Shown here: positions 4,668 to 60,615 of the stretch, in pieces | Position numbering within the stretch: position 1 is the stretch's first letter | How the letters are laid out: each line of letters starts with the position of its first letter | Source of the DNA: Pollenia angustigena | Taxonomy: Eukaryota > Arthropoda > Insecta > Diptera > Polleniidae | DNA: 64,000 nt | NCBI GenBank assembly: GCA_930367215.1 | Contig: OV884059.1 | Location: 33,409,882 to 33,473,881, forward strand | Direction of reading: 5' to 3' | Translations under genes and position numbers: made by a program | The notes under the pieces: generated by a model | Told to the model about the DNA's origin: nothing | Seen by the model: the letters and a program-made list of their open reading frames with translations, nothing else | The model's database searches: none

Positions 4668-6499
4668 GGGATTCGTTTTCGGGACTGGTGCAACGGAACC
4701 TTAGGGTTACACGGAACTGGGGGTCGACTCCGGCCGGTGTGGAGCGGCTGGTAAACACATTCACGGGGGTATTGACCAGTAGCTAGTTGAAAACTCAAAG
4801 GTCCACCGTCAGAAGGCTGTTCAATAGAGCGAAGTATACGCGCAGGGATGAAGATTGGAGTAACTTCAGGTTGACTTACGGGAGGTATAAGGGAGATATT
4901 AGAAGGGCGAAAAGGGTCTCGTGGATTAAGTTTAGCGAGTCATTTGAATCCGTGAATGAGATGTCTAGGTTCAGAAGAATTTTATCTAAGGACTCTGTAG
5001 TCCCTGGATTTATTCAGAAATCGGACGGCTCATGGGCGGAATCAGGCTCTGAATCTCTCTGTCTGCTTATGGAGACTCACTCACTGGATCCTGGGTCGGG
5101 GGAACAGGCTGTATGTGGCTCAGGCGGTGAGGAAAGAGAGACGGTGGGGGGTATGATTACCTTGGATAAAGTAACATGGGCGGTAAATACCTTTGGGTCC
5201 TACAAATCGGCGGGGCCAGATGGTATATTTCCGGCGATGTTACAGAATATCGGGAAATCATCACTCCTGTTGTTGGTGGAACTGTTTAGGGTATGTGTGC
5301 TGAACGGGTACATTCCTAGGAGGTGGAGGGAGGTTAGGGTAGTTTTTATTCTCAAGGCGGGTAGAACCGGTCACTCTAAACCCAAGGATTTTAGACCAAT
5401 CAGCTTGTCGTCTTTTCTCTTTAAGACGTTGGAAATACTGATTGATCTACATCTGAGGACGAAGATTGACGCCGGCATCGTCAACGGCGCTCAACACGCC
5501 TACCTTAAAGGTAGATCTGTTGAGAGTGCGTTGCATGATGTGGTTGGTTATGTGCAGCGGGGTTTGCGAACCAAGAAATACACCCTGGCGGCATTCCTGG
5601 ACATAGAGGGCGCCTTTAACAATTTAAGGATAGAGGCTATAAGGCAGGCACTGGTTGACCTGAGGGTTCCGTTGTTCTTGGTCGAATGGATAACTATGAT
5701 GCTTAGCAGCAGAGTTATTCACTCGGACTGGGGAAACGAACGCTTTAGGAAATCGGTGACTAGGGGGACCCCACAGGGGGGAGTTCTCTTTCCCTTATTG
5801 TGGCTCTTGGCCGTCAATGTCGTTCTGAGACGTTTTGACAGAATGGGTCAGAAGGTCGTGGCCTACGCGGATGATGTGGTGATATTGGTGTCGGGCAAGT
5901 TTCTGCCGACAATTAGCGACATCATGCAAGGGGCGCTGGGCGAACTGTCGGCATGGGCAAGTGACAAGGGACTGGGAATTAATCCGGAGAAGACGGAGTT
6001 GGTTCTTTTCACTAGGAGGAACAAGGTGGAGGAGTTTAGACTGCCGGTACTGGGAGGAGTGGAGCTTGGACTATCTGATAGTGCTAAGTATCTAGGGGCT
6101 TTTCTGGACAGCAAGCTGTCATGGGGTAGGAATACCCAGGAGAGACTCAAAAGGGGTCTCAATGCCTACTATGCTTGCAGTTCATCGATAGGTAGGAGCT
6201 GGGGACTCCGGCGGTAAGTGGTGGAATGGCTGTACACTTCGGTGGTTGGACCCATTCTTACGTATGGATGTTGTGTTTGGTGGGAGACATTGAGATTGGC
6301 AAGTCGTAGGAACCTTCTTTCTAAGGCTCAGAGGTGTGCTTCAATTGGCATGACAGGTGCCATGAGAAGTACTCCTCAGTATGTGATGGGAATGGCGGCC
6401 AGGAGCATTATTAGACTGAGGGAGTTGGGACTGACGAGGAATGACACTCAGGGTCACTCACGGATCCTGGGTGAGATTGAGGCTGGTGGCTATTGCCTG
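4668..6499 (+). pseudogene. LOA reverse transcriptase region (broken)
   Basis: This encoded target-primed reverse transcriptase. Reading starts in the endonuclease-RT linker (DWDSFSGLVQRNLRV), meets TAG at 4784, and continues as LKTQRSTVRRLFNRAK, with an apparent small deletion just before that phrase. RT blocks follow in order: SAGPDGIFPAML near 5205, KPKDFRPISLSSFLFK near 5380, motif A FLDIEGAFNN (Asp at 5600), motif B GTPQGG (5765-5782) and motif C YADD (5864-5875). A TAA at 6214 splits the thumb: the frame resumes at once with VVEWLYTSVVGPILTYG, so this is a nonsense change and not a frameshift. The catalytic Asp residues are intact. Confidence 0.85.
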
Positions 6500-7499
6500 C
6501 AGGGTTACCGTTGGAAATTTTCGAAAAGGGTCACAAAAAGGGGATTTTCCAGAAAAAAGGGTAAAAAAGGGTATTTCAATAAAAAAAAAGGGTCAAGTTT
6601 CTTATAAGCAGTATTTCCCATTTAAATGAACATAATAAGACCAAGTTTTTTTATGAGCAAACAAAAAAATAATATTTCAGGTAGGAAGAGCTCAAAAATT
6701 TTTTTTATGGAATGCTCTGTCCTGTATTTAACACCTGACAAAAATTTTATTCTTTATCATTATACATAGCTAAATTTTGAATACTTTTTATGTAATTTTC
6801 CGATTTAGCGATGTCAAAAAATTTTAGTGTTTGTTTTAAATGTTGCAATCGTTCGCGAATTGTAAAAATTTTCTCGATTAAAGCGATTTTTTCCTGTAAG
6901 TGTCAGATTTTTTAAAGCTTTTGCGATTTTTAACTTTGCTATCATACCGCTGTTACCAAATATTTGGGAATTTCCGCTAATTTAGCAATTTTTACCTCTT
7001 GTTTTCATTCCTCTTAGGGCACTCTCAACACTGTCGATTCAAAAGGAGGCGAAAAGTTCAATACTTTTTGCCATTATTAAGGGCGAATTATTTTGAATAA
7101 AACATGCTACTCTTTAAGAGAGCAAAACACCAATTTACATTTTTTTTAATAAAATGTAAAATTTTTGTTTTGAAAAGAAACCACCGTAAAAATAACAAAT
7201 ATTTATATGAGTTATGTTTGCTTTAAGGAAATTGTACTTTACTATCAAAAATCAAGGAGAGGAAAGCATGGAATTAAAGTTTATACTTTGAGTCTGTTCC
7301 ATATCAAGCAATGCTTATTTCGAAAACATTTGTTTAGCACTTCTGTTCCGCAGTGTTGACAAAAAAACAAAATGTGAGAGCTATTTCCAAAAAAGGGTCG
7401 AAAAGTGTCACAAAATAGGTGATAATGATACAAAAGTATTTAAAAAAAAGGGTCAAAAAAGTATCAAATTGATACTTTAGTATCACAACGGTAACGCTG
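6500..7499. mobile_element. hAT-type miniature element inside the LOA LINE
   Basis: Exactly 1000 bp. The ends are CAGGGTTACCGTTG at the left and its complement CAACGGTAACGCTG at the right, differing only at the fourth base. CAG-start ends plus an 8-bp duplication (ATTGCCTG at 6492-6499 and 7500-7507) are the hAT signature. The interior is AT-rich with repeated AAAAAGGGTCA-type phrases near both ends and no transposase. Removing the element plus one duplication copy leaves the LINE frame open across the junction, so it entered after the LINE. Confidence 0.9.
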
Positions 7500-7507
7500 A
7501 TTGCCTG

Positions 7508-8487
7508 GGACCGCCGGGCTCCACTGATTATGTGAGCACCAGAGTGGATTTTGGTCGGTCGCCAGAGTTAATAGTGCCCTCTAGGGAGAGCTGGTCGGGC
7601 AGGAGCAGATTATTTGGTGGATTTGCTATTTTCACTGATGGCTCGAAGATGAGGGGCACGGGTGCAGTGGTCTACATTGAGGATCTGAACATAAGAAGGT
7701 CATATAGGCTTCCTGACGACTGCAGTGTTTTTCAGGCGGAGGTTCTGGGGGTCTGGAGGGCCGTGGAACTGATGAGGGACAACATTGATAGGGGCTCGGA
7801 GGTCACTATATATGTGGACAGCCAGGCGGCTCTTATGGCCGTAAGGGGCTGTTATGTGAACTCCAGGCTGGTTGATGAGTGTAGGAGGGCTCTGAAGGGA
7901 GCCTTAGGGGAGTATTTGCTAAGGTTGTGCTGGGTGCCGGGTCATTGCGACATAGGCGGCAATGAGGTTGCTGATGAGTTGGCAAGACAGGGCTCAGAGA
8001 TGGAGGATCCTGACTGTGTGGAGGCGGTTAGGCCTCCATTGGGCTTATATTTTGGTAGAATTAAGGAGTGGATACTGGGCGCGACCAATCGGGCCTGGGG
8101 GGCCGAACGGACTGTCGGGTATCGCGGATACTGTGGCCGGTGCTTAGGAAGTCCGATTCGGTGTCGCTGCTGGGCAGGAGCAGGGTCTGCGTTAGGACCA
8201 TGATAGGAATGATCACGGGCCACTGTATGATAGGCAGGATGGCGGTGAGGATGGGATTCGACTTGTCGGATATATGCAGGTTGTGCGAGGACCCTGAGGA
8301 GTTGGAGACAGTTGAGCACTTTCTGTGCCACTGTCCCAGGTTGCAGGGTAGCAGGCTGAGGTGGCTGGGCAGTAGATTCCTGGGCGAATTGGGGGATGTC
8401 TCTAGTTGCGGACTCGAGAATCTGATAGGATTCGTAATGGGGATGTCCTGGCTGCGCGAGAGGAGACTGGGTGCTAACCGCACGTAG
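7508..8487 (+). pseudogene. LOA RNase H domain and C-terminal knuckle (frameshifted)
   Basis: This is the continuation of the LINE frame after the hAT insertion. RNase H residues are all visible: FTDGSK with Asp at 7637, QAEV with Glu at 7739, YVDSQAA with Asp at 7817, WVPGH, then NEVADELA with Asp at 7973. This domain removes the RNA template during cDNA synthesis. Around 8110-8140 the frame shifts by one. The second frame carries MIGMITGHCMIGRMA and a knuckle CRLCEDPEELETVEHFLCHC (C-x2-C-x10-H-x3-C), which normally closes LOA/I-type proteins, and it ends at 8487. Confidence 0.85.
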
Positions 8488-10962: not shown

Positions 10963-11030
10963 CTGTTAAAAGGTAAAATAATACACTTAATACTGTATTA
11001 AGAATCATTAAGAAGAAATTTGGCTCTTAC

Positions 11031-12165
11031 CTTATCAGCTGCCAAAATTCTGAATGAATCAATAACTTGTTCGGCAGTATCAGTGTCTGTACTTTCGCGT
11101 GTCATGAAGTCAAGGAAGGCATCAAAGTGTACATAACCAGTGGAGTTGGGATCAACAACAGCCAAAATACGTTGGAAGTCCATATCACCTTGGCGGTCCT
11201 TGCCAATAGAGTAGCCCAATGAGACAAGGCAGGATTTGAATTCTTCGGGTGTCAAGCGGCCTGTACGATTCTTGTCAAAGTGATTGAAGCTGGAACGGAA
11301 CTCGTTCAATTGCTCTTGGCTAATGCCCTTAGAATCACGGGTGAGAATTTGGTTTTCGACCTCATTGATGTTACGGTTAATGGAGGTTAGCAATTGTTCC
11401 CAACCGACGCGAAGTGTCTCCATGGTGTAGTTGGTGTAACGGTTTTCAAAGATCATCGATTCTTGGACGGCTTGATGGATCTTCTCCAATTCTTCAATAT
11501 TGGGTTTGTATGCATACACAGCTTGTTCGTATTCCTTGAGACGATGCATTTGATCTTCCAATGAACCTTGGAGACCCATGCCGATAGCGGTAACAGCATC
11601 CATTTGACGTTCAATCCAGGGACCAACAATGTTGGCCTTTTCGGCAAATTGTCTGCGCAACATTTCGTTGTTTTGTTGTTTACGCAATTCGTTAGCCAAC
11701 GTTTGATCACGTTGTGGCACCAATTGACGAACATCACTCCACTTGCGTGTTATATCGTTGGCGGTTAGGGTGGTGTAGGGATTCTCCAAACCGCCGGGAA
11801 TTTGATGTTGCTTTACAATCGATTCAACTTCACGTACCAAGTTGACAATCAAATTGAATTCCTTGTCTGCTTCGCCCAAAGTGGCCTTAAATTGATCGTG
11901 GGCTTGAATAAGACCTTGAATTTCTTCCATGGTGTGGACAATAAACATATCAACCAGATCTTCGCGAGTACCGTCCAACCAGTTATTAAATGGAGCAGCA
12001 CGTTTGGCGAATTCAAGATGTAAGATATCGATTTTCTCCAATATGCGCTCGGCTTCATCCAAAGCAGTACGGCGACGTTGAGTCAAGGCTCCCAAACGAT
12101 CCCATTGATCGCAAATGCGTTGGCAACGTGAATTCACCGATATGCAATCGTGATATTCGAGTGTG
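11031..12165 (-). CDS. Actn: Actn exon: spectrin repeats and first EF-hands
   Basis: 1135 bp. The first base completes an Asn codon split with the previous exon, and the exon ends in phase 0 at AAG before GTAAGA. It encodes [20 protein letters not shown] and onward, helical spectrin repeats that form the rod and dimer interface. Then come EF-hands. The first loop, [12 protein letters not shown], has all the expected calcium-liganding positions. The second, [12 protein letters not shown], has Ala at position 12 instead of Glu, so it probably binds calcium poorly. It is the largest exon and was chosen from the continuous frame and strong splice sites. Confidence 0.96.
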
Positions 12166-14089: not shown

Positions 14090-14411
14090 CTCAAATTAGA
14101 CGTGACATAGCCATAATGCCACAGCCATAACGGCGAATTTAAGGTCCAATTAGACGTGACATAACCATACCAAAACTGTATTACCATAGCCACTGTATTA
14201 CCAAAACGACATAAACATACCATACAAACCAATTCAATTTAGGTTTCTAAAGCTCAAATTAGACGTGACATTAACATAATGCCACAGCCGTAACGGCGAA
14301 TTTAGAAACCAAAATTGAATTGGTTTGTATGGTATGTTTACGTCGTTTTGGTAATAGAGTGGCTATGGTAATACAGTTTTGGAATGGTTATGTCACGTCT
14401 AATTGGACCTT
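14090..14411. mobile_element. inverted-repeat element, family W, copy 1
   Basis: Two arms of about 110 bases are near-perfect inverted copies: TTAGACGTGACATAACCATA at the left is answered by GGTTATGTCACGTCTAATTG at the right, and ACCAATTCAATTTAGGTTTC by its complement near the centre. Short direct copies of the AGACGTGACAT end lie inside, at about 14098 and 14261, so one copy has probably inserted into or recombined with another. A second copy at 48262-51855 is split by a hAT insertion. Confidence 0.7.
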
Positions 14412-16700: not shown

Positions 16701-16740
16701 CCGATAACTTTTGTTAAATTTCTTTTTAGAGAAAACTTAC

Positions 16741-17270
16741 TTAAGTTCTTGGGCAATAGCAGCAATTTGCTCAACGCGATCCTGGTGTGCGGCCAAATCG
16801 GATTCGAAAGCTTCGTGTTTTTTCTTTAATGCCTTTAAATCGTTCAATTTGCATTGACGGAAATCTTGCGATTGTAACATTTCTTCCTTGCCGCGAGTCC
16901 AGTCTTCGTGAGCATCGGCCTTGTGCTTGAACTTCTGAGCCAAATGCTCCAAACGTTCCAAACGCATAGTTTCAGCCAAAAGCCATTCTTCAAAAGCCTT
17001 TTCGGCGAGTTCCAAACCCTTCCAGGCATTCGAGATATCACCAACTGTTTTACCTTCAGTGGGCAAGTAGGCGGGACGATTCGAGAGGCGCAATTTTGTT
17101 TGCAAAGTGTTGAAATTAGTTTCGAGCTTAGCTTTTTGTTCAACACGTGGTGGCTTGTGTTTGCGACGGTAGGTGCGGTATTCTTCTAATTTCTTTTGCA
17201 CCCCAGCCAAAGAGTTATCGGCCTGGCGGGAATTCAACCAAGGCATAGTGCGGCGAATCCATTCCAAAAG
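16741..17270 (-). CDS. Actn: Actn exon: spectrin repeat 1 region
   Basis: 530 bp from acceptor TTTATTTAG to donor GTAAGT, entering in phase 0 and leaving after two bases of an Asn codon. It encodes [20 protein letters not shown] through [10 protein letters not shown], the first spectrin repeat and the start of the second, immediately after the neck. The sequence is helical and rich in Lys/Glu, as expected for the rod. Confidence 0.96.
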
Positions 17271-23723: not shown

Positions 23724-23785
23724 CTATTTTTTTTATGATATTAAGACGATTATTTTTGGTTTTAAATTTTATTAATTTTACTAAC

Positions 23786-24202
23786 CTTGAATGAAAGATG
23801 GAAGTTCTGTACATTGACATTCTTGTAGGGGGCGGTTTTGCGTTGGCACCACAACAACAAGCCTTCCTTGGCGGTCATCTCTTCAACAGAGATATCTTGA
23901 ATGGCAAAGCGTAAGATGATGGTCCAGATCATACCAAGTGTCATCTTTAAATTGCCATCGACAATTTCTTCGGCACCAATCGATACTAAATGGACACCTT
24001 TGGATGCAATAAAATCCAAGGCTTTATTAACATTTGCAATTTTATGGAAACGCATTTTGCCACGATCGGGCTTGGGCAAAGTTTCACCAGAGATAACTTC
24101 GAGCAACAACATCAACTTCAAACCATTGCGGAAATCATCTTCAATATTGTCGATGGAGGTACCAGCTTTACGCAAATGACTGTTGCACCAAGCTGTAAAT
24201 GT
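23786..24202 (-). CDS. Actn: Actn exon: first calponin-homology domain
   Basis: 417 bp (139 codons) from acceptor TTTTAATTCAG to donor GTTAGT, phase 0 at both ends. It encodes [50 protein letters not shown] and [14 protein letters not shown], then the start of CH2 at [20 protein letters not shown]. Actin binds across this domain. It opens directly in the CH1 helix, so an upstream exon must supply the start codon and about 38 residues. I could not find it on the minus strand up to 64000. Confidence 0.95.
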
Positions 24203-24270
24203 CTGAATTAAAAATAAACAAAATGTTTCTCTAATTAACTTGGAAATTTTATTTATTAAGTTAAACATTA

Positions 24271-24932: not shown

Positions 24933-25565
24933 AATATTCAGCCCAATTATGACTACAAATTCCCCGGGAGTTTTTTCCCTTTTCACATTTTTACAATTAA
25001 ATTTACATAGAAAAATTGGGAGAATAGAGAAAACTTTCGGGGAATTTTTATTCATAATTGGGCTGATTATAATAAAAAAAAACCGAATTGAGATTGGTAA
25101 AAACAAGACATATTACTCAGCTAAATATATAATTTGTTTAAAGTGTAGTTACTCCAGAGAAAAGGTAGTTGACACAAAACTAGTCCCATGACTGGATATT
25201 GTGCGGGTAGTGGCAGTTGTATCTAGATCCATTACCTTATTTGATGTAGTTGGTCTAGGCGATGGTAAATATTTTTGGCTATTACACTTGGTTGGTTTAA
25301 TCACCTGTTCACTCGGGAAAATATCTGCGTTAGGCATTATATTAACCGAAATTGAATGTATCAATTTATTCTATTTTAGTGACCTGATACAAAGTGTCAA
25401 AAAGGTGCCAATTAACCCCCTTCTACGACATCAACATGTTAAAGTGAGAAGTCCTCGTTATATAAAGTTTTAGAACTAGAACAGGTCCCTACCAGCATAA
25501 TACTGTCACGAGATAAGTTTCTTTTTTTTTTTTTTGGAATACAAAATTTGTTCTATTTTTTATAT

Positions 25566-26870: not shown

Positions 26871-28169
26871 TAAATTTATATATTTTAATGGTTAGGCAAC
26901 ATTGTTGTAATAAAACTTGACAAAAAAATATGTAAATAAAAAAAACTATTTATTAATAACGACATTTTCAAGTATTGACAATAAAAATGGAAGATTTTCA
27001 TCCAAACAGCGACACTTGCTCGTCTGAGAAACGCATTCAAGAAATTTGTTTCCAAAACGGGTCTTTGGTAACTACCCAGGCAGATATTGTGACGACAATA
27101 ACACTATAAATGCAAAATTAAGACTTATGTATTTGCGTTCTAATGTCATCGATTTGTTAAGCCAACGTATTAAACTTATATTTCGGGTGTTTTAGGGACG
27201 TTGGACGCAATAATAAAAATACTGTAATTAAGTTTTAAATTTAACATTGTGGTTTCATTGGCGTTACCGTTTTAATACTGTGAATGCAATGCAATTTTCG
27301 TAAATATGGTGTGCAACTGATGTTAGTTGTACCCCTAACCCCTTCTTTTCACATGCAAGTGCAAGTTCGATTTTTAGTACGGCTTCCTCGATTTTTCTTT
27401 TATAATAAGTATACACTACTTGCAAGTAATTACTTGCATATGGAAACGTAGGGTAAACCATAATAAGAACGTTATACTAATTGTCTTTTTATGACTGAGT
27501 ACATGACGATCAACTTTAAAAATATTGTCACTTTTAGTGTTGGTTGTATTGCAGTCTGTCTAATAAAAGAAAACATTTTCAATATTGAAACATTCAATCA
27601 ACAAGACTACAAAATTGTTTTCGTCTGTTTTAATATTTAAAAACTTCCACAATAATTTAATTGAATCAAATATTTTACGTTCTTAAGTGACATTATCAAA
27701 AACAACATCCTTTATTAATTGAGGGCCCGTTCGTTGATTTCGACCGAAGACTTCGTTCGCTTAAATTACTTTTAAAACAAAAACAAATTATAAAATAGTG
27801 TTTTTGTTTAACATGTAAGATAAGCGAACGAAGTCTTCATTCAATATCGACGAACAGGCCATTAAAGAATTTAAACTGACATGTACATATACAGAAGTAG
27901 AACTTTTAATTTGGGACGCCCTTTTAAAGGACCCATAGGAACATCTAAAGTGTTTGTAAAATTAAAATTGATGCCAATTCTTAATTTCGACCTTCCCTAA
28001 AAGATCATAAGTTATAGATGTAAATTATAAAAAAAAACAATTTTGAAAATGAAAACTACGTTTTAAACTTAAACAGAGTTTAATTAATAAAAAAAATACC
28101 AAAACGTTTGAACAAACTATTTAAACTAATTCAAAAACAATTGTCCAATTCACAATCTCGTAGTCACGG
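26871..28169. other. AT-rich non-coding stretch with one small inverted-repeat element
   Basis: At 27724-27860 an element has ends GGCCCGTTCGTTGATTTC and its imperfect complement ATATCGACGAACAGGCC, with GACTTCGTTCGCTTA and its mirror inside. A relative is at about 54318-54426. Nothing else is recognised. Confidence 0.5.
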
Positions 28170-29182: not shown

Positions 29183-30486
29183 AAGGGTGGTTAAATTGTA
29201 AGGGCCGATGTTGAATGTGAACCACACCTAAACGCCAAGTTTTTTTCCGAATTTTATTTGACATTTCTCTATTTCAGACTTACTCAATTTGAACCATGGA
29301 GAGATACACAATCCAACAACGTGTTAAAGTTATCCAGACTTATTATGAAAATGGGCGTTCAAATCAAAATGCATATCGTGCACTTCGTGATTTTTTTGGT
29401 CAATTTGATCGTCCAAATGTGCGTACAATCGCAAAAATCGTGGAAAATTTCGAGCAAACCGGGTCTGTAGAAAATGTGAGAACACCAGTGCATGCTCGTA
29501 CAGCTCGTACTGCAGAAAATATTGCTGCTGTTCGCGATAGTGTGGCTGAAGAGCCGTCCACCTCAACTCGTCGTCGTGCCCAACAATTGCACCTCTCACG
29601 CTCGTCGTTGATGAACATTATGCATAAAGACTTGCATTTACACGCTTACAAGGTGCAATTGGCTCAAGAACTAAAGCCTCTTGACCATTCCAAACGTCGT
29701 GAATGGGCAGAATGGTGGCAAGAAATGGCAACAGTGGATGATAAATTTTCGAAGAAAATCATCTTCAGTGATGAGGCACATTTTCACCTCAGTGGATTCG
29801 TCAATAAACAGAATTGCCGCATTTGGGCGAATGAGAATCCAAGAGTGATTGTCGAAAAACCAATGCACCCACAAAGAGTGACTGTTTGGTGCGGTTTATG
29901 GGCTGGCGGCATCATCGGGCCGTATTTTTTCCAAAATGAGGCCGGTCAGGCAGTTACTGTGAATGGTGTTCGCTATCGTGAGATGATAACGAACTTTTTA
30001 TGGCCCGAATTGGAAGATATGGATGCGGACGATATGTGGTTTCAGCAGGACGGTGCCACTTGCCACACAGCTAACGAAACAATGGCTCTTTTGCGCAACA
30101 AATTCAATGGCCGTGTTATCTCACGTAATGGCGATGTCAATTGGCCGCCAAGATCATGTGATTTGACACCGTTGGACTTTTTTCTTTGGGGTTATTTTAA
30201 AGAAAAGGTGTACGTCGATAAGCCAGCAACAATTCAAGAGCTAAAGGATGAGATAATTCGGCACATTAACGGCATAGAACCTCCATTATGCCTCAGGGTC
30301 ATCGAAAATTTGGACCATCGGATGGAGGTGTGCCGCCGTGGTCGCGGCGCCCATTTGGCCGATATTTTGTTCCATACATAATTGAGTAATACCAATATAT
30401 CATAATAAAATAAAATTACAATAATTTCCTAAATAGTTTGTGTTTTATTCAAAATCAACATCGGCCCTTGAAATTTAACCACCCTT
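29183..30486 (+). mobile_element. DD41D (rosa-like) mariner element, apparently intact
   Basis: 1304 bp bounded by TA on both sides (29181-29182 and 30487-30488). The terminal inverted repeats start AAGGGTGGTTAAATT and continue, after two differing bases, AAGGGCCGATGTT, so about 28-30 bp are nearly perfect. One complete transposase frame lies inside with no stop. Tc1/mariner elements move by cut and paste into TA. The near-identity of the two ends and the intact frame point to a recent insertion. It lies antisense to Actn in the presumed first intron. Confidence 0.93.
29296..30381 (+). CDS. mariner-superfamily transposase, DD41D type
   Basis: 361 residues, the full length expected for a mariner transposase. 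The N-terminal half has the paired helix-turn-helix DNA-binding region (YTIQQRVKVIQTYYENGRSN and then LSRSSLMNIMHKDLHLHAYK). Catalytic acids are Asp159 in IIFSDEAHF, Asp252 in WFQQDGATCHT and Asp294 in CDLTPLDFFLWGY. The second and third are 41 residues apart, which defines the DD41D (rosa) group and separates it from classical DD34D mariners. WVPQ-type dimer motifs are not obvious. The start at 29296 follows GAACC and precedes the first helix. The frame ends FHT, TAA, with AATAAAATAAAA soon after as a possible poly(A) signal. All catalytic residues are present, so it may be active. Confidence 0.93.
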   Translation: MERYTIQQRVKVIQTYYENGRSNQNAYRALRDFFGQFDRPNVRTIAKIVENFEQTGSVENVRTPVHARTARTAENIAAVRDSVAEEPSTSTRRRAQQLHLSRSSLMNIMHKDLHLHAYKVQLAQELKPLDHSKRREWAEWWQEMATVDDKFSKKIIFSDEAHFHLSGFVNKQNCRIWANENPRVIVEKPMHPQRVTVWCGLWAGGIIGPYFFQNEAGQAVTVNGVRYREMITNFLWPELEDMDADDMWFQQDGATCHTANETMALLRNKFNGRVISRNGDVNWPPRSCDLTPLDFFLWGYFKEKVYVDKPATIQELKDEIIRHINGIEPPLCLRVIENLDHRMEVCRRGRGAHLADILFHT

Positions 30487-32244: not shown

Positions 32245-32765
32245 TTAGTATTGTGGTTATTATATTATTATATTATAGTGTACATTTGTCCTTCAAGTTG
32301 TGCTGAAAAAGGTCAACAGAAAAGAGAAGGACAAAATGAAAAAACAAAAAATGTACTTGGACTTCAAGAAAAATTCTTGACAAAAGTACGAAAAAACAGA
32401 AGTAAGGGAAAAGCATGTAAAATCAATTGAAATGGATAATCATTCGGGAAAGCAAATTTCGATCTACCAAATGTTAGAATACAATTTGGTTTAAGGATTG
32501 ATGTTTGACTATTGACGTCAGCAGTCGTCGATGGCTGCGGGTGTAAGACAGCAAATCCATCTGAGGAGATTGAGTGGTTGCAATCGAAACATGTCATGGT
32601 AACCTGCCGGCCGGGGTTCGAGCCCCAACCTCGTCAAGAATGAAAGATTATCAATAACAATTTTGATTAATTTTCATGTTGTAAAATTCCTTTCTTCATA
32701 AAAATAATTTAATGAAAAATTAAATTTCATGAACTTAAGCCTAATTAAAAATATTAAAGATTTGG
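32245..32765 (+). repeat. PLE pLTR-type repeat, copy 2, complete with ribozyme
   Basis: It is flanked by a perfect 16-bp direct repeat ATTATTAACTAAATAA (32229-32244 and 32766-32781), a target duplication of the size made by target-primed retroelements. The first 19 bases (AATTAGTATTGTGGTTAT, 32245-32263) are the tail of the repeat in inverted orientation. Then the unit proceeds in plus sense: GTGTACATTTGTCCTTCAAG, the GACGTCAGCAGTCGTCGATG stretch, the hammerhead core, a GGTTCGAGCCC box and the AT-rich tail TAAGCCTAATTAAAAATATT. It has no coding capacity. Confidence 0.8.
32549..32609 (+). ncRNA. hammerhead ribozyme (type I), pLTR copy 2
   Basis: The order fits the consensus core: stem I strand CAGCA-AAT-CCAT, CTGAGGA (32561-32567), stem II GATTG/CAATC around an 8-nt loop, GAAA (32586-32589), C-AT-G as a minimal stem III, and GTC (32593-32595) as the cleavage triplet. 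It closes with ATGG pairing CCAT and TGC pairing GCA. Relative to the copies at 49 and 60 kb, stem II has a C-G pair replaced by T-A on both strands, so the stem is preserved by a compensatory change. Confidence 0.75.
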
Positions 32766-34837: not shown

Positions 34838-35158
34838 TTTAATCCAAATTTTTAATATTTTTAATTAGGCTTAAGTTCATGAAATTTAATTTTCATTAAA
34901 TTATTCTTATGAAGAAAGGAATTTTACAACATGAAAATTAATCAAAATTGTTATTGATAATCTTTCATTCTTGACCACTCGATCTCCTCAGATGGATTTG
35001 CCGTCTTACACTCGCAGCCATCGACGACTGCTGACGTCAATAGTCAAACATCAATCCTTAAACCAAATTGTATTTTAACATTTGGTAGATCGAAATTTGC
35101 TTTCCTGAATGCTTATCCATTTTAATTGATTTTACATGTTTTTTCCTTAATTTAGACA
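34838..35158 (-). repeat. PLE pLTR-type repeat, copy 3, ribozyme deleted
   Basis: Reading on the minus strand it matches the other copies from AACATGTAAAATCAATTAAA through GACGTCAGCAGTCGTCGATG and CTGAGGAGATCGAGTGG. It then jumps directly to TCAAGAATGAAAGATTATC. The missing stretch removes the second half of stem II, GAAA, stem III, the cleavage triplet and the GGTTCGAGCCC box, so this copy cannot self-cleave. The 5' part is also missing. Confidence 0.75.
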
Positions 35159-36524: not shown

Positions 36525-36601
36525 ATTTACACAAAAATCTAACAGAATTCTGTCTGACATAAAAAATGTCTGATTAATCTGTTACAAGGCCAATTCACAC
36601 T

Positions 36602-36726
36602 AGGGTCCTGTTTCTCAAAACTACAAGTAAAACACATTTGAAAAAAAAAAAAATTGTAAACTTGTTGCTTTTTTAATGTATTTTACTTGTAGATTTGTAG
36701 CTTGTAGTTTTGAGAAACAGGACCCT
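36602..36726. mobile_element. short palindromic element with AGGGTCCTGTTTCTC ends
   Basis: 125 bp. AGGGTCCTGTTTCTCAAAAC at the left and its perfect complement GTTTTGAGAAACAGGACCCT at the right continue into TACAAGTAAAA and its mirror. The whole unit would fold into a hairpin. A MITE-type element is the likely class. Confidence 0.75.
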
Positions 36727-38048
36727 GGTGACCTTAGCTTGCTACGTAAGCAACAGCTGATAACTTACCATATGTCGAAATGGTGTACCATTCTGGTGGT
36801 TCTGGGGAATTTTTCATAAATTCTATAATTTTCAATTAGAATTATGATATTTAAAACATTCTTAAATTTTTAAAAATCAAAACATACAATTTATAATTAA
36901 AAAAAATGATTTGCTTGTGTATAATTGTAAACAAATGCAGATTTTTTCCAGTGCTGCCAGAAGTTTTTTGTGTTGCCAGAATAAATTTTTATAAAAATTG
37001 CACATTTGCACAAAAAATAAAAGTGGTTTGCTCAAGATCAATCATAATATACACTGCATATTTACAAATTTGCACAATGACCATCGTGATTACCCTCATT
37101 GAAACACAATTTGTTTCAATACCTTAATATAGCAATAATAATGGCAGTACAAACTTTGTGTTCATTGCGACTCTTCAATAAAAACAACGAATTTTCTTTG
37201 ATTTCTAATTTCAATATAAAATATCAATACAAATTGAGGTGCGAACAACTCATCCGTACAAAAGTTTTAAAGAAATGAATATTGCACGAATATGCTTGTG
37301 TGGTATGTGTTTCTAGTACGATTCAACATCGCTTGTTTGTGATTCCTCAGATATTCACCCCTATCGTGGCTGGCGTAGGCGTATTAAGCCGAAAATTTGT
37401 ACCGCTGTCGTAATTTAAAGACTTAACAGCAGTTTTTGCAAAAATGCGCCAACTACGATAATCTTTTTTGTAATAGATTTGTAAATAGTGTCGTATTTGC
37501 TGTCGTTTTTGCTAACCACGATACCATTTTTTAAAAACGTCTAACTTTCGCCACAAAACGCCAAACACGTTAGGGGTGATTATTTAGCAGTTTTCTTTTT
37601 TCTATTTTTCAAATTTAGCATGAATGTCTCACACAATTATTTCTTTAGATTCCTATCAGAATTATTTTTTTCTATAAATCTCGAAAAATGCGACCGATAG
37701 GGATGTTTCAATTCAAATTTTAAGACTTTTCTAAGCTTTTCAGTACAAAAGGATTATTAAATCAATATAAAATCAAATTCATATTTTGTGGCGTTGAACA
37801 TTTGTAGAAAGCAACAACAAAATTATAAAATATTTTTGACATTGTATTTGCTTTCAATGAACTTTTGGCGTTGTGTTGCGTTTTACACAATTTGGGCCTA
37901 ATGGTTTTTGTTTCATTTTATGTATTTTTTGTACTTTTTTATTTTTTTTCTTTGAGCATAATTGCAAAATATTTGTTTGAGTTTAGCGAATACGAAAACG
38001 AATGTCATGAAACATGCGAATATTTGTAACATCAAAAGTACGCATCGT
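36727..38048. other. AT-rich non-coding stretch
   Basis: No gene is seen. The stretch 37365-37575 is slightly GC-richer, with imperfectly repeated GTAT/TACGAT phrases (CTATCGTGGC, ACTACGATAATC, AACCACGATACC). They look like the remains of an inverted-repeat element, but the borders are not clear. Confidence 0.35.
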
Positions 38049-48261: not shown

Positions 48262-49427
48262 GTTTCAATTAGATGTAACATAACCACAACCATTCAAAAA
48301 AAGTTGCTTGAACCAACCTTATGGGCATCACTGTATTTAATTATTGGTGACTTGTCAAAACGCCATAAACATATCAAAACACCAATTGAATTTTGGTTTC
48401 TATGGTTATAGTTACGGCTGTAGCATTATGGTCACTGTTGCCAATTTAGAGATTTTCCCGCTAAATCTAGCGTTTTTGAACAGTCAATCGCGGGAAAAAA
48501 TACGTTTTAGCGGTAAGCGGGAAATCTAGCGGCTCGTTTTCGCTACCAAAACCTTCCTCAAATTTTAAATTTACAGATTTTATAATTTTTGTTATAACGT
48601 TTTTTGTTTTTCTGGCTAAAAACTACTTGTTAATGTTCAGGGTTTTACGTACTTTTGTAAGTTTAGTGAACTGATTATTGTGTGTGACATTTTTTTTTTC
48701 GATTTTCAGTTAGTATTTTATTAGGGCAGTATGTGACAATTCGCAACATTAAGCTTGCTTAAAATTTTAAAACAAACAAAACTTTTTTGCGTTTTTATAA
48801 AGGAATTGGTTTATCCTCCACTACAACTAGTTGTGATAAGGGTATTCTAAGTTTGTCATTCCGGGTGAAACTGTTTAATATTCATCAAGACCCCATAAAG
48901 TACATATGTATATTCTGGGTCCTTGAGTAATTCTAAGTGAATTTAGCCATGTCCTTTAGTTGAAAAAAAGAATAAATATTGGTATCAATTTGTTTCTAGT
49001 TTTCCTAAGCAGTTTGGGATTGAAATCCAGGAGGCTTATTCTGTATTGCGATGCGAAAATCAATGCGATGCGAAAATGCATAAATGCGAACAATTGTTAT
49101 TCTGTATTGCGATATTCGCAAAGGTTTTTTTTAATCGCATTTCAAATGCGAAAAGGTGACAAGTCGGTATTCTACATTGCGAAAACAAATGTCAAATTCG
49201 CAAAATTTATTCAACAACAAAATAGCATTCGCAAAGTACAAACATGTTATGAAAGATATTATTTTATTTATTTATTCATCATATATTTTTTAATTAGGCT
49301 TAAGTTCATGAAATTTAATTTTCATTAAATTATTCTTATGAAGAAAGGAATTTTACAACTTGAAAATTAATTAAAATTGTTATTGATAATCTTTCATTCT
49401 TGACGTGGCTCGGGCTCGAACCCTGGC

Positions 49428-49488
49428 CGGCAGGTTACCATGACATGTTTCGATCGCAACCACTCGATCTCCTCAGATGGATTTGCCG
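49428..49488 (-). ncRNA. hammerhead ribozyme (type I), left arm of inverted pair
   Basis: On the minus strand: CGGCA-AAT-CCAT, CTGAGGA, GATCG/CGATC stem II with loop AGTGGTTG, GAAA, C-AT-G, GTC, then ATGG-TAACC-TGCCG. All conserved core bases are present. The predicted cut lies between plus positions 49442 and 49441. Stem I has 4 + 5 pairs around an asymmetric internal loop, the usual partner for loop II in fast natural hammerheads. Confidence 0.8.
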
Positions 49489-50281
49489 TCTTACACTCGC
49501 AGCCATCGACGACTGCTGACGTCAATAGTCAAACATCAATCCTTAAACCAAATTGTATTTTAACATTTGGTAGATCGAAATTTGCTTTCCTGAATGATTA
49601 TCCATTTTAATTGATTTTACATGTTTTTTCCTTACTTCTGTTTTTTCGTACTTTTGTCAAGAATTTTTCTTGAAGTCCAAGTACATTTTTTTGTTTTTTC
49701 ATTTTGTCTTTCTCTTTTCTGTTGACCTTTTTCAGCACAACTTGAAGGACAAATGTACACATAGAGCTCGTGCCTTAGCTTTAACAATAATTAGTATTGT
49801 GGTTATTTTGTTGAACTATTTATGGTTTTTAATCCAAATTTTTAATATTTTTTAATTAGGCTTAAGTTCATGAAGTTCATGAACTTAAGCCTAATTAAAA
49901 AAAAAAAAAAAAAAAAAAAAAATATTAAAAATTTGGATTAAAAACCATAAATAGTTCAACAAAATAACCACAATACTAATTATTGTTAAAGCTAAGGCAC
50001 GAGCTCTATGTGTACATTTGTCCTTCAAGTTGTGCTGAAAAAGGTCAACAGAAAAGAGAAAGACAAAATGAAAAAACAAAAAAATGTACTTGGACTTCAA
50101 GAAAAATTCTTGACAAAAGTACGAAAAAACAGAAGTAAGGAAAAAACATGTAAAATCAATTAAAATGGATAATCATTCAGGAAAGCAAATTTCGATCTAC
50201 CAAATGTTAAAATACAATTTGGTTTAAGGATTGATGTTTGACTATTGACGTCAGCAGTCGTCGATGGCTGCGAGTGTAAGA

Positions 50282-50342
50282 CGGCAAATCCATCTGAGGA
50301 GATCGAGTGGTTGCGATCGAAACATGTCATGGTAACCTGCCG
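50282..50342 (+). ncRNA. hammerhead ribozyme (type I), right arm of inverted pair
   Basis: The same 61 bases as the left arm, in plus sense: CTGAGGA at 50294-50300, stem II GATCG/CGATC, GAAA at 50319-50322, GTC at 50326-50328, then ATGG pairing with CCAT and TGCCG with CGGCA. Stem III is only C-G plus the A-U pair of the core. ACATGT is self-complementary, so two molecules could pair there and cleave as a dimer. Confidence 0.82.
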
Positions 50343-52001
50343 GCCAGGGTTCGAGCCCGAGCCACGTCAAGAATGAAAGATTATCAATAACAATTTTAAT
50401 TAATTTTCAAGTTGTAAAATTCCTTTCTTCATAAGAATAATTTAATGAAAATTAAATTTCATGAACTTAAGCCTAATTAAAAAATATTAAAAATTTGGAT
50501 TAAAAACCATAAATAGTTCAACAAAATAACCACAATACTAATTATTCATCATATATTTATGATTTAATTCAGGGAAGCAAGCAATAAGACCACCAAACCG
50601 CGTCAATTTGAAATAATGATAGAATTTATGAATAAGCACCAAATGCACGTCAGTCGGCAAATACTTTGTGGCAAACGTTAACTGAAGAACTAAATATCAA
50701 TGGACCACCTATTAGAGAAGCTGCAGGATGGAAAAAGTATGAAATATATAAACCAGTTAAAAAATATTTGACTTCAACTTTAATTTTAATAGGTCTAAGC
50801 CGATTTTAAAGTACACACAAAACATTTTCATTTTCTTCGTCGTCGAACCACAGTGCCACAAAATCCATTTTTATTATTTTTTTTTTATTACAGAATATCA
50901 TAAATATATTTTTTAAACAATTTTCACAGCCAAACACAAACAAATTATTTAATTTGTCGTTTATTGACACTGACGTATATTTGAGCAGCGTTGCCACGAT
51001 TTGAAATAAATTGCGAATGCGATTGCCAAAGTCTAACAGAATACCAATTTTCTTTCGTATCGCATTTCATTTGCGCATCGCATTATAAAAACTAGCATAA
51101 CTAATGGCGGAATGCCTATATTGATATAAGATTTTTCACAAATATGACTTAAAATAATACTGTTAATTTTCGTGAGGATCGGTCTATAATTAACGATAGG
51201 CCTCATATAAAGTACAAACATTTTGTACGCCTAAAACGGTAACAAATATTGCTATTATAATAATTTTTGTTCTGTCAAAAATTTGTATGACTATAAATGA
51301 CACTGTCAACTTTCGTGCCGATCGTTCCATAACTTACCATTAGCCTTATATAAAGCCCACTCTCGGAAAAAGCTTAAGTACGCGTAAAACCTTTACTATC
51401 TCAATCTGTGTTCTATTCTAATAACATTTGGTCAGTCATAGTTTTATAAGACAATAAATAACCTGTTCAAATTTTGTGAAGATCGGCCTATAATTTACCA
51501 TATGTCCCATATAAAGACCACTCCAGCAATTTTCTAACTGTATGTGCAGGGTATCAAAGATTCGGCACAGCCGAATGTTTCACTATAACCTTTTTTTGGG
51601 AATAAAATAGATAGGGAAGTTGAAAACGTAATTTGAGAGTCATATACATACCTTTGCAAAAGCAACACATATCTAGATTTATATAAAACTTAAAAAAGTT
51701 TAGGTTTTGGCGGTATTTTTAAGAAAATTCCCGCTAAATTAATTATTTAGCGGTTTCTAGCGGTTTTGAAGTCCGATTTGGCGGGAAGTGTGAAAAAAAA
51801 GTTGGCAACAGTGATTATGGTTATAACACGTCTAACTGGACCTTTAAGGCCCAACCATAATGTAACAAGTTCTGAGTGCCAATGATACTCGGAGCTTCAA
51901 GGCGAGAGATTGGCGCCTTCAAATAACCAACTGCCACCAACAGCCCGCCTGGAGGCCATGCTGGCAGCCCCAGTTCCAGGATCGGATGCAGAACCCCAAT
52001 C

Positions 52002-58760: not shown

Positions 58761-59817
58761 AAAGACAGAAATAGTTTTTTGGCATTGAAGTGGGAAAAAC
58801 AAAAAACACAAACCACGGTAAACAAACGTTTTTTTGTGCAAAAAAAAAAATATATATTTAGTAATACTGTTTTGTTTTGTATTAAATATTATTTACAGTT
58901 TGGAAAATAAATCTTAACTAAATAAATTTGTGTTCACTGAATTGCGGCATAAAAGATGTTACAAAGAGAAATACAAAAAGGGCAGCTTTCGATGAAAGAG
59001 ACATAAAAAAAGCAATATCTTCCGTCTCGTGTCTGCTCTGTGTATACTCTGTGCCAGCGTTGCCATGTTGGAGCCTTTCGGGTATTTTTTGGTGCTTTTT
59101 TGCTTATGCAATACCCGAAATTTTGTTAAACACCCGTTTTTGAAAAGCGGGTATTTATAGTGCTTTTAAAAATGTCTCACAGTGCTTTTAAGTGCCTTTT
59201 ACAATATTTATTTTTTGTACCATTTTTTAAAACTTCGATTATATTGAGGATGTTTAAGATGAGAATTGCTATTTGGGGTACAATTTTGGGAAGGCCTGTA
59301 AAGATTTTAAGGTTTCAAATGATAAAAAAAAGTGATAAAATAAAGTTGCATTCGTTTTACCAAAAACTTTATTTACGAGGTTAGAGCTAGGCTTCCTAGC
59401 AACTTGGAAATTTTACAAAACGTTTACTTTTTAGCGTTGACAACATATTTTTTTATTAAAATTTGGGCTGTCATTAAGTTTTATAAAGAATGGTCGGTCA
59501 CTGCAAATTTTCGGTAATTGCAACAGGCCAAATTTTTTCTAACTACGAAAATCTAGCTCGCACTTTATTACTGTTTTATGACCAATTCATACTCAGCTGA
59601 TGATGATCCAAATGATTTGGTTGATATAATTTTTATTGAAGGTAATAATAATAAATTTATAATTTATAATAAAGTCTGGTAGTGTATAAAGTCATTTCTA
59701 TAAAATTTAAAAATGTTTATATACAAATGTAACGCCTTTTTTTAAATTTTGAAGGTATATAATATTCGGCACAGCCGAATGCAACTTGTTTTGTGTTTAA
59801 TTAAATTTAAAAAATGG

Positions 59818-60615
59818 ATCGAAACATGCCATTGTAACCTGCCGGCCAGGGTTCGAGCCCGAGCCACGTCAAGAATGAAAGATTATCAATAACAATTTTA
59901 ATTAATTTTCATGTTGTAAAATTCCTTTCTTCATAAAAATAATTTAATAAAAATTAAAGTTCATGAACTTAAGCCTAATTAAAAAAAAATATTAAAAATT
60001 TGGATTAAAAACCATAAATAGTTCAACAAAATAACCACAATACTAATTATTGTTAAAGTTAAGGCACGAGCTCTATGTGTACATTTGTCCTTCAAGTTGT
60101 GCTGAAAAAGGTCAACAGAAAAGAGAAAGACAAAGTGAAAAAACAAAAAAAATGTACTTGGACTTCAAGAAAAATTCTTGACGAAAGTACGAAAAAACAG
60201 AAGTAAAGGAAAAAACATGTAAAATCAATTAAAGTGGATAATCATTCAGGAAAGCAAATTTCGATCAACCAAATGTTAAAATACAATTTGGTTTAAGGGT
60301 TGATGTTTGACTAGTGACGTCAGCAGTCGTCGATGGCTGCGAGTGTAAGACGGCAAATCCATCTGAGGAGATCGAGTGGTTGCGATCGAAACATGTCATG
60401 GTAACCTGCCGGCCAGGGTTCGAGCCCGAGCCACGTCAAGAATAAAAGATTATCAATAACAATTTTAATTAATTTTCATGTTGTAAAATTCCTTTCTTCA
60501 TAAAAATAATTTAATAAAAATTAAATTTCATGAACTTAAGCCTAATTAAAAAAATATTAAAAATTTGAATTAAAAACCATAAATAGTTCAACAAAATAAC
60601 CACAATACTAATTAA
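59818..60615 (+). repeat. PLE pLTR-type repeats, tandem partial dimer
   Basis: The first unit starts abruptly in the second strand of ribozyme stem II (GATCGAAACATG) and runs to the tail ending CAATACTAATT. The second unit follows directly (ATTGTTAAAGTTAAGGCACG) and is complete. The distance between equivalent bases (GAAAC at 59821 and 60388) is 567 bp, which gives the unit length. AATGG occurs at both outer borders, so a short target duplication is possible but not convincing. This head-to-tail layout is known for Penelope elements. Confidence 0.82.
60351..60411 (+). ncRNA. hammerhead ribozyme (type I), second unit of the tandem dimer
   Basis: Identical in all core bases to the motif at 50282-50342: CTGAGGA at 60363-60369, GATCG/CGATC, GAAA at 60388-60391, GTC at 60395-60397, then ATGG...TGCCG closing stem I. 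The partial first unit keeps only GATCGAAACATGCC and so lacks the CUGA side. A transcript across this locus would be cut once. Confidence 0.8.

Follow-up and report, generated by a model that had tools for sequence, protein, structure and literature searches.

A non-coding, hammerhead-bearing repeat in Pollenia angustigena is a likely retrozyme-like element with Penelope-type insertion ends

Hammerhead motifs in Penelope-like elements (PLEs), retrozymes of animals, and PLEs with inverted arms and a tail on one of them have each been described before. The hammerheads of PLE pLTRs (Cervera and de la Pena 2014; Lunse et al. 2017, via PMC6155905 and PMC7761336) are described as minimal forms that lack helix III; cleavage in dimeric form has been suggested for them. 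Metazoan non-LTR retrozymes give RNAs of about 170-400 nt, and PMC7229834 names PLEs as a strong candidate for mobilising them; there and in PMC7761336, both the mover of animal retrozymes and the purpose of PLE hammerheads are left open. The PLE enzyme of the anole cuts and extends both strands and has two RT start sites, and the ribozyme of that element cut only when protein was added (PMC11167929). The Penelope of Adineta vaga has inverted pLTRs, a TSD (target-site duplication), and an optional 31-bp tail on one inverted pLTR (PMC3846280). The parts – PLE hammerheads, metazoan retrozymes, and PLEs as their likely movers – are thus already known, the last from PMC7229834. A retrozyme with PLE-type ends was not encountered in the literature searched by title and abstract opening, a scope outside which most subscription papers fall.

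Here, we describe a repeat of about 562 bp from the fly Pollenia angustigena, found in a stretch of 64,000 nucleotides of contig OV884059.1 (hereafter the window). Like the metazoan retrozymes (PMC7229834), it consists of short, non-coding, AT-rich tandem units with one type I hammerhead each and longish TSDs, but it differs from them in its 562-bp unit, its minimal stem III, its head-to-head arrays and a tail at one end. With the PLE pLTR hammerheads (PMC6155905 and PMC7761336) it has in common the type I core, an absent or minimal helix III, and a proposal of dimer cleavage, whereas its motif lies in a separate non-coding element and the resident PLE carries another. Inverted arms, short TSDs, a tail on one arm and trans-mobilisation of foreign sequence are likewise features of the EN-containing Penelope of A. 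vaga, although the sequences moved there are flanked by PLE pLTRs (PMC3846280) and the 562-bp unit has its own ends. Anolis PAc, with a hammerhead near the ORF start, a tail between two RT start sites and AT-rich targets (PMC11167929), is similar in layout to the resident PLE, and differs from the 562-bp unit, which has no ORF. We estimate a probability of roughly two in three that this non-coding repeat is a retrozyme-like parasite: its own ribozyme is predicted to cut its RNA, and a likely Penelope-like element resident in the same genome would supply the enzyme that copies it. We base this on the motif and its covariation, the arrays, the target duplications, a tail-on-one-end pattern common with the PLE, and one chimera.

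The whole motif, including the two parts of stem I, lies at 50282-50342 on the plus strand and reads CGGCA/AAT/CCAT/CTGAGGA/GATCG-AGTGGTTG-CGATC/GAAA/CAT/GTC/ATGG/TAACC/TGCCG. A scan for core and stem II places core positions 3-9 (CTGAGGA) at 50294-50300; stem II (GATCG/CGATC, loop AGTGGTTG) follows at 50301-50318, with a fourth pair that covaries C-G/U-A between subfamily forms, and the self-complementary stem III segment ACATGT, which could form 6 bp in a dimer, at 50322-50327. In GTC^A (50326-50329) hammerhead chemistry would place the cut between 50328 and 50329. The 43-nt heart of the motif (50290-50332), used as the span for the covariation count, contains every invariant hammerhead position along with stems I (4 bp) and II (5 bp), and four copies in the window do so; the repeat motif has the type I core (CUGANGA ... 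GAAA ... NUH) together with stems I and II. Direct reading of the letters bears out the invariant bases and stems claimed for this interval by the first-pass annotation, and its four full-core copies (32549, 49428, 50282 and 60351) were all recovered, that at 49428 on the minus strand. Its description of a type I hammerhead with minimal stem III inside a dispersed repeat is supported by the sequence.

In the scan of the window the C of CTGAGGA falls at 32561, 50294 and 60363 on the plus strand and at 49476 on the minus strand. The copy at 32549-32609 (+) has stem II changed on both sides to GATTG/CAATC, that at 49428-49488 (-) is the second copy in the insertion at 49289-50541, in its antisense arm, and that at 60351-60411 (+) lies within a single-armed tandem insertion (59817-60614). 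A decayed copy with GGAG for GAAA (2155-2197, +) is part of a PLE/repeat chimera, and two further copies of the repeat are damaged: at 34941-35084 (-) a deletion runs through the motif, and the copy starting at 59817 has the 3′ part of the motif only.

A strict descriptor (core, stem II of at least 4 bp, NUH, stem I of at least 4 bp) gives four matches in the window versus two in total across 400 dinucleotide shuffles of it; since the four belong to one family they count as one independent match, with a chance of about 0.005 per window. A looser descriptor (stem I of at least 3 bp) gives seven matches in 264 kb, comprising the window and 200 kb adjacent, all of them in this repeat family. The covariance-model match that the first-pass annotation had set as its check was not obtained, Rfam 15 reporting nothing at E <= 10 in 50180-50420. 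Rfam also reports none in loci L038 and L039, which contain the hammerhead-like motif of the PLE, or in L013, which contains a copy of the repeat, so the miss weighs little for forms without stem III. A search of the genome with family RF00163 found nothing, as did the same search of 14 control genomes, and is uninformative for such forms.

For stem III, ACAUGU gives only 2 bp and a 2-nt loop in a single unit; a dimer allows 6 bp. The hammerhead fold of the monomer has an energy of -13.6 kcal/mol versus -17.3 kcal/mol for the minimum (3.7 above it), and that of the dimer -32.2 versus -39.8 kcal/mol (7.6 above it). Because ACAUGU is self-complementary, the dimer hammerhead (-32.2) is more stable than two monomer hammerheads (2 x -13.6), and the segment suggests, from its sequence, that cleavage would take place in a dimer. 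The monomer fold was dropped as support for the hammerhead, as its minimum-energy structure is a different one.

Covariation was assessed from 124 copies of the 43-nt span (28 distinct) at loci picked for the most part because they resemble the repeat, a choice that biases upward the share of intact copies (99 of 124, spread over five forms with all pairs intact). Stem I occurs as CCAT/ATGG (24 loci) versus CCCT/AGGG (three forms, at 17, 5 and 4 loci), and stem II as GATCG/CGATC versus GATTG/CAATC, so that the compensated changes are A-U/C-G in stem I and C-G/U-A in stem II. For the 27 distinct rows scored, which leave out one spanning an inversion junction (L036:26-68), 93.8% of cells are paired, and structures slid along the alignment drop to 26-53%. 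Cells changed on both sides number 20 versus 7.3 +/- 2.3 in shuffles, with none of 500 shuffles as high, and the covariation score is 0.224 versus 0.117 +/- 0.016, again with none of 500 reaching the observed value. Of the five measures taken on the whole structure, two do not exceed shuffles and so lend no support (pairs changed on both sides, 2 versus 2.0 in shuffles; pair types, 4 versus 6.0), and the signal resides in two of nine pairs, hence in few events, with related copies counted repeatedly. An older form, in L081, L084 and L087, has the first pair of stem II broken. Stem pairing appears to have been kept by compensatory change, which points to selection while the subfamily forms were active.

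A repeat search of the whole genome (1.37 Gb in 31 contigs), in which 40 of 275 candidates were scored, found at least 197 matches. The approximately 150 listed are mostly 560-564 bp apart and form arrays of up to about 14 units, arranged head-to-tail and as head-to-head pairs of arrays. There is one hammerhead motif in each unit of about 562 bp, and the unit is separate and non-coding. The tandem arrangement of such units, with a type I hammerhead in every one, agrees with the description of metazoan non-LTR retrozymes. The unit has no match to the PLE ORF, the RT plus GIY-YIG frame by which an autonomous PLE would be recognised. A complete unit is present at 49985-50546 (+). Downstream of the motif, GGTTCGAGCCC at about 50348 (about position 364 of the unit) is kept in several copies and is a possible internal promoter element. 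Elsewhere in the unit a hairpin is predicted at positions 102-138 (50086-50122, +; -11.2 kcal/mol for the folded 66-nt segment).

That complete unit belongs to the sense arm of a head-to-head insertion at 49289-50541, in which the antisense arm comes first and the sense arm second, with an exact inverted repeat of 571 nt, and which is bounded by a 17-bp TSD, TTATTCATCATATATTT (left 49272-49288, right 50542-50558). Among 17 array loci fetched whole or partly, 11 are two-armed (antisense then sense units) and six are single-armed; two insertions in the window, together with L066/L041, L043, L044 and L067, bring a further six two-armed cases. Units differ at 0-8 positions within an insertion versus a mean of 9.0 between loci, a within-insertion range that leaves out the two window units, which belong to different insertions (17 differences); this fits one template. 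Private variants are fixed in all units of an array in six cases versus present in a subset in 16, and this mixing of variants within arrays means that rolling-circle copying is not demonstrated by array homogeneity. L043 and L044 each contain exact duplicates of repeat sequence, inverted junction included, which lie 4.4 kb apart in L043 and 2.6 kb apart in L044. The flanking DNA of L044 is duplicated as well.

Both outer ends of the two-armed insertions are 3′ ends, and in all 17 examined one end lies at unit 557-562, carrying a tail of about 40-50 nt, and the other is tailless, ending at unit 503-531 in 16 and at 459 in one; four further two-armed arrays, placed by the coordinates of the genome search, have ends at 504/561, 560/522, 562/512 and 545/562, the short end of the last falling outside the usual range. 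That one end alone is tailed suggests that a first and a second priming event follow in order. Duplicated target sites measuring 11-17 bp flank 15 of the 16 two-armed insertions tested (L067, at C1:82039899, was left out as its right flank lies outside the compared sequence), whereas six of 240 mismatched flank pairs reach 10 bp, the longest 11 bp. The exception, L044, has a 4-bp duplication only, and its proper left flank lies outside the sequence compared. The signature of PLE-mobilised sequence – a TSD, two outward 3′ ends and one tail – is therefore present in the repeat.

Single-armed insertions are tailed in all seven cases with the 3′ end read (L028, L030, L031, L032, L035, L037 and 59817-60614 in the window), two of which (L028 and L037) have a duplication of at least 10 bp. 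With an eighth case added (C1:113779822, L068, which has a 23-nt inverted piece), the 5′ end falls at unit 131-144 in five of eight (L028, L030, L031, L032 and L068), that is, at the 3′ base of the hairpin predicted at 102-138. A transcription start was considered for these 5′ ends and set aside, as the hairpin accounts for them equally well. None of the inner (5′) ends read lies within 3 nt of the predicted cut (unit 344/345) and the arms run across it, so that cut linear monomers would not be the direct template.

The likely source of the copying enzyme is an element with a unit of about 2.9 kb, the long copies of which have an open frame of 833-874 aa carrying RVT_1. Its C-terminal domain of 144 aa (1250-1681, -, in the window) has no Pfam match, to an endonuclease or otherwise, and contains motifs of putative GIY-YIG type; structure prediction gave no usable fold (mean pLDDT 31.6). 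This 144-aa ORF has two relatives in protein databases (72% and 57% identity) and at least 150 scored matches in the genome, of 6617 candidates. At C1:96.66-96.71 Mb (96660598-96707516; L039 and L042) nine minus-strand and seven plus-strand domains stand head-to-head, mostly 2.93 kb apart. All sixteen score equally, and this array is apparently very recent. On the basis of the RT match, the putative endonuclease motifs and the architecture we regard the element as likely Penelope-like, no database having named it a PLE.

This resident PLE has a hammerhead-like motif of its own, starting some 160 nt before the first methionine of the ORF; it reads TATC-CTGAAGA-A-GATTTCC-AAA-GGAAATC-GAAA-TATC-GATA in one subfamily and has TTTC/GAAA as stem I in the other, and it carries one extra A before stem II. 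Of the seven PLE loci read at both ends, five are tailed at one end and not at the other; counted from the ORF stop, their ends lie at 415/374 (L040), 449/401 (L090-L091), 401/440 (L092-L093), 414/439 (L094-L095) and 445/400 (L096-L097); L041/L066 (351/258) and the window locus, which includes the chimera (218/381), depart from the pattern. Target duplications in six loci are 12-13 bp (L040, L090, L092 and L096), 9 bp (L094) and 5 bp (window locus), and none of 30 mismatched pairs exceeds 8 bp.

Repeat and PLE sequence directly adjoin in the window, L038 and L041. In the window they form a chimera at 1036-2411, ordered as antisense PLE, antisense repeat, sense repeat and sense PLE 3′-terminal piece: a PLE fragment with the 3′ region and ORF residues 689-874 (1036-1807, -), repeat pieces with PLE sequence on both sides (1832-2342; antisense 1832-1934, sense 1923-2342), and the PLE 3′-terminal piece fused in sense to the repeat (2346-2411, +). 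At the first junction ATTC is common to both partners. Most simply, each arm would record a jump of template from PLE RNA to repeat RNA; rearrangement after insertion is a possible alternative. A search with the second junction of the chimera, with 40 of 2029 candidates scored, gave no other true chimera, which leaves the window as the single locus; the one other match across this junction, L071, looked like a second chimera by its coordinates but is the 3′ terminus of the repeat itself. A common 3′ recognition sequence (a CTTAAGC block) was considered and set aside, its score being reached by 18 of 300 shuffles for PLE subfamily 2 and 118 of 300 for subfamily 1. Comparing the full unit with the PLE gave 3 of 300 (subfamily 2, at another place) and 108 of 300 (subfamily 1), and the 3′ regions of repeat and PLE have no clear similarity.

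The window contains further mobile and coding sequence. Pieces of a non-LTR retrotransposon lie at 4787-8487 (+), with an RVT_1 ORF at 4787-6217 (Pfam) and, further downstream, an ORF at 7532-8203 (+) that resembles RNase H on visual inspection, and a 361-aa open frame at 29296-30381 (+) with a DUF4817 helix-turn-helix domain presumably encodes a mariner-like transposase. A Spectrin-repeat/EF-hand exon at 10998-12137 (-) and two further ORFs at 16737-17267 and 23762-24268 (-) are probably alpha-actinin-like; the repeats may sit in introns of a conserved gene. Palindromes at 14213-14339, 24937-25067, 27722-27862 and 36578-36748 match microRNA or small-RNA models below the gathering score and are probably short inverted-repeat elements; the Rfam microRNA matches in the window fall on palindromes, with scores under the gathering threshold, and were rejected on this account.

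The first-pass annotation had proposed that the repeat is the pLTR of a fly PLE. The link to PLEs stands, through the insertion signature and the chimera, and the identity as a pLTR does not: the inter-ORF region of the full-length PLE copies read has no blastn homology to the 562-bp unit and contains a different motif, and the unit forms arrays of its own with a period of about 562 bp, so it is not the pLTR of the resident element. A broader version, in which some autonomous PLE, perhaps of a second lineage, has the repeat as its pLTR or leaves it as a solo pLTR, would explain the head-to-head arms, tails and TSDs, all of them PLE features, and the copies directly beside PLE sequence. We nevertheless think it improbable, since at L066/L041 the repeat is nested within a PLE as an insertion with its own 14-bp duplication, and no PLE lies between the widely spaced direct units of L043 and L044, where the longest stop-free frames are 176 and 97 codons (40 of 275 candidates scored).

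A reading that we consider unlikely, though less so, accepts mobilisation by the PLE and makes the hammerhead a relic: the repeat would be copied from uncut multimeric transcripts and its ribozyme would have no present role. The arms that cross the cut and the lack of any end read there fit this, as does a motif that is not the minimum-energy fold, and in the anole PLE hammerhead mutants left insertion unchanged and read ends at the cut site were not found (PMC11167929). Against it stand the compensated stem changes and the intact forms at 24, 17, 5 and 4 loci, which point to selection. That the repeat is instead a tRNA-derived SINE, with a promoter-box hairpin resembling a hammerhead by chance, is scarcely credible: GGTTCGAGCCC fits the Pol III B-box consensus, and loop II resembles a tRNA D-loop, but no tRNA was reported by ARAGORN for the window or by Rfam (E <= 10) for 50180-50420, the motif matches the whole hammerhead descriptor and has covarying stems, and the end pattern is of PLE type.

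For a retrozyme-like parasite copied by the resident enzyme, the following course may be proposed. Transcripts would read through several units, and the hammerhead would cut them, probably with two units paired into a dimer, as the self-complementary ACAUGU leads us to propose. The PLE protein would cut the target on both strands; on one side a cDNA would begin where the tail is found (unit ~557-562), on the opposite side a second would in many cases begin at the tailless site (unit ~503-531), and both would be joined in the middle. We lean slightly towards this fuller account, in which a 562-nt ribozyme-bearing RNA parasite hijacks the target-primed, two-ended reverse transcription of the PLE, giving palindromic arrays, and the enzyme can jump between PLE and parasite RNA. 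If true, it would be direct genomic evidence for PLEs moving retrozymes. The genome brings together a ribozyme repeat and a PLE with an open ORF that have the same insertion signature and different ribozyme motifs, and so defined a pair makes trans-mobilisation, the choice of tail and the need for ribozyme cutting each testable.
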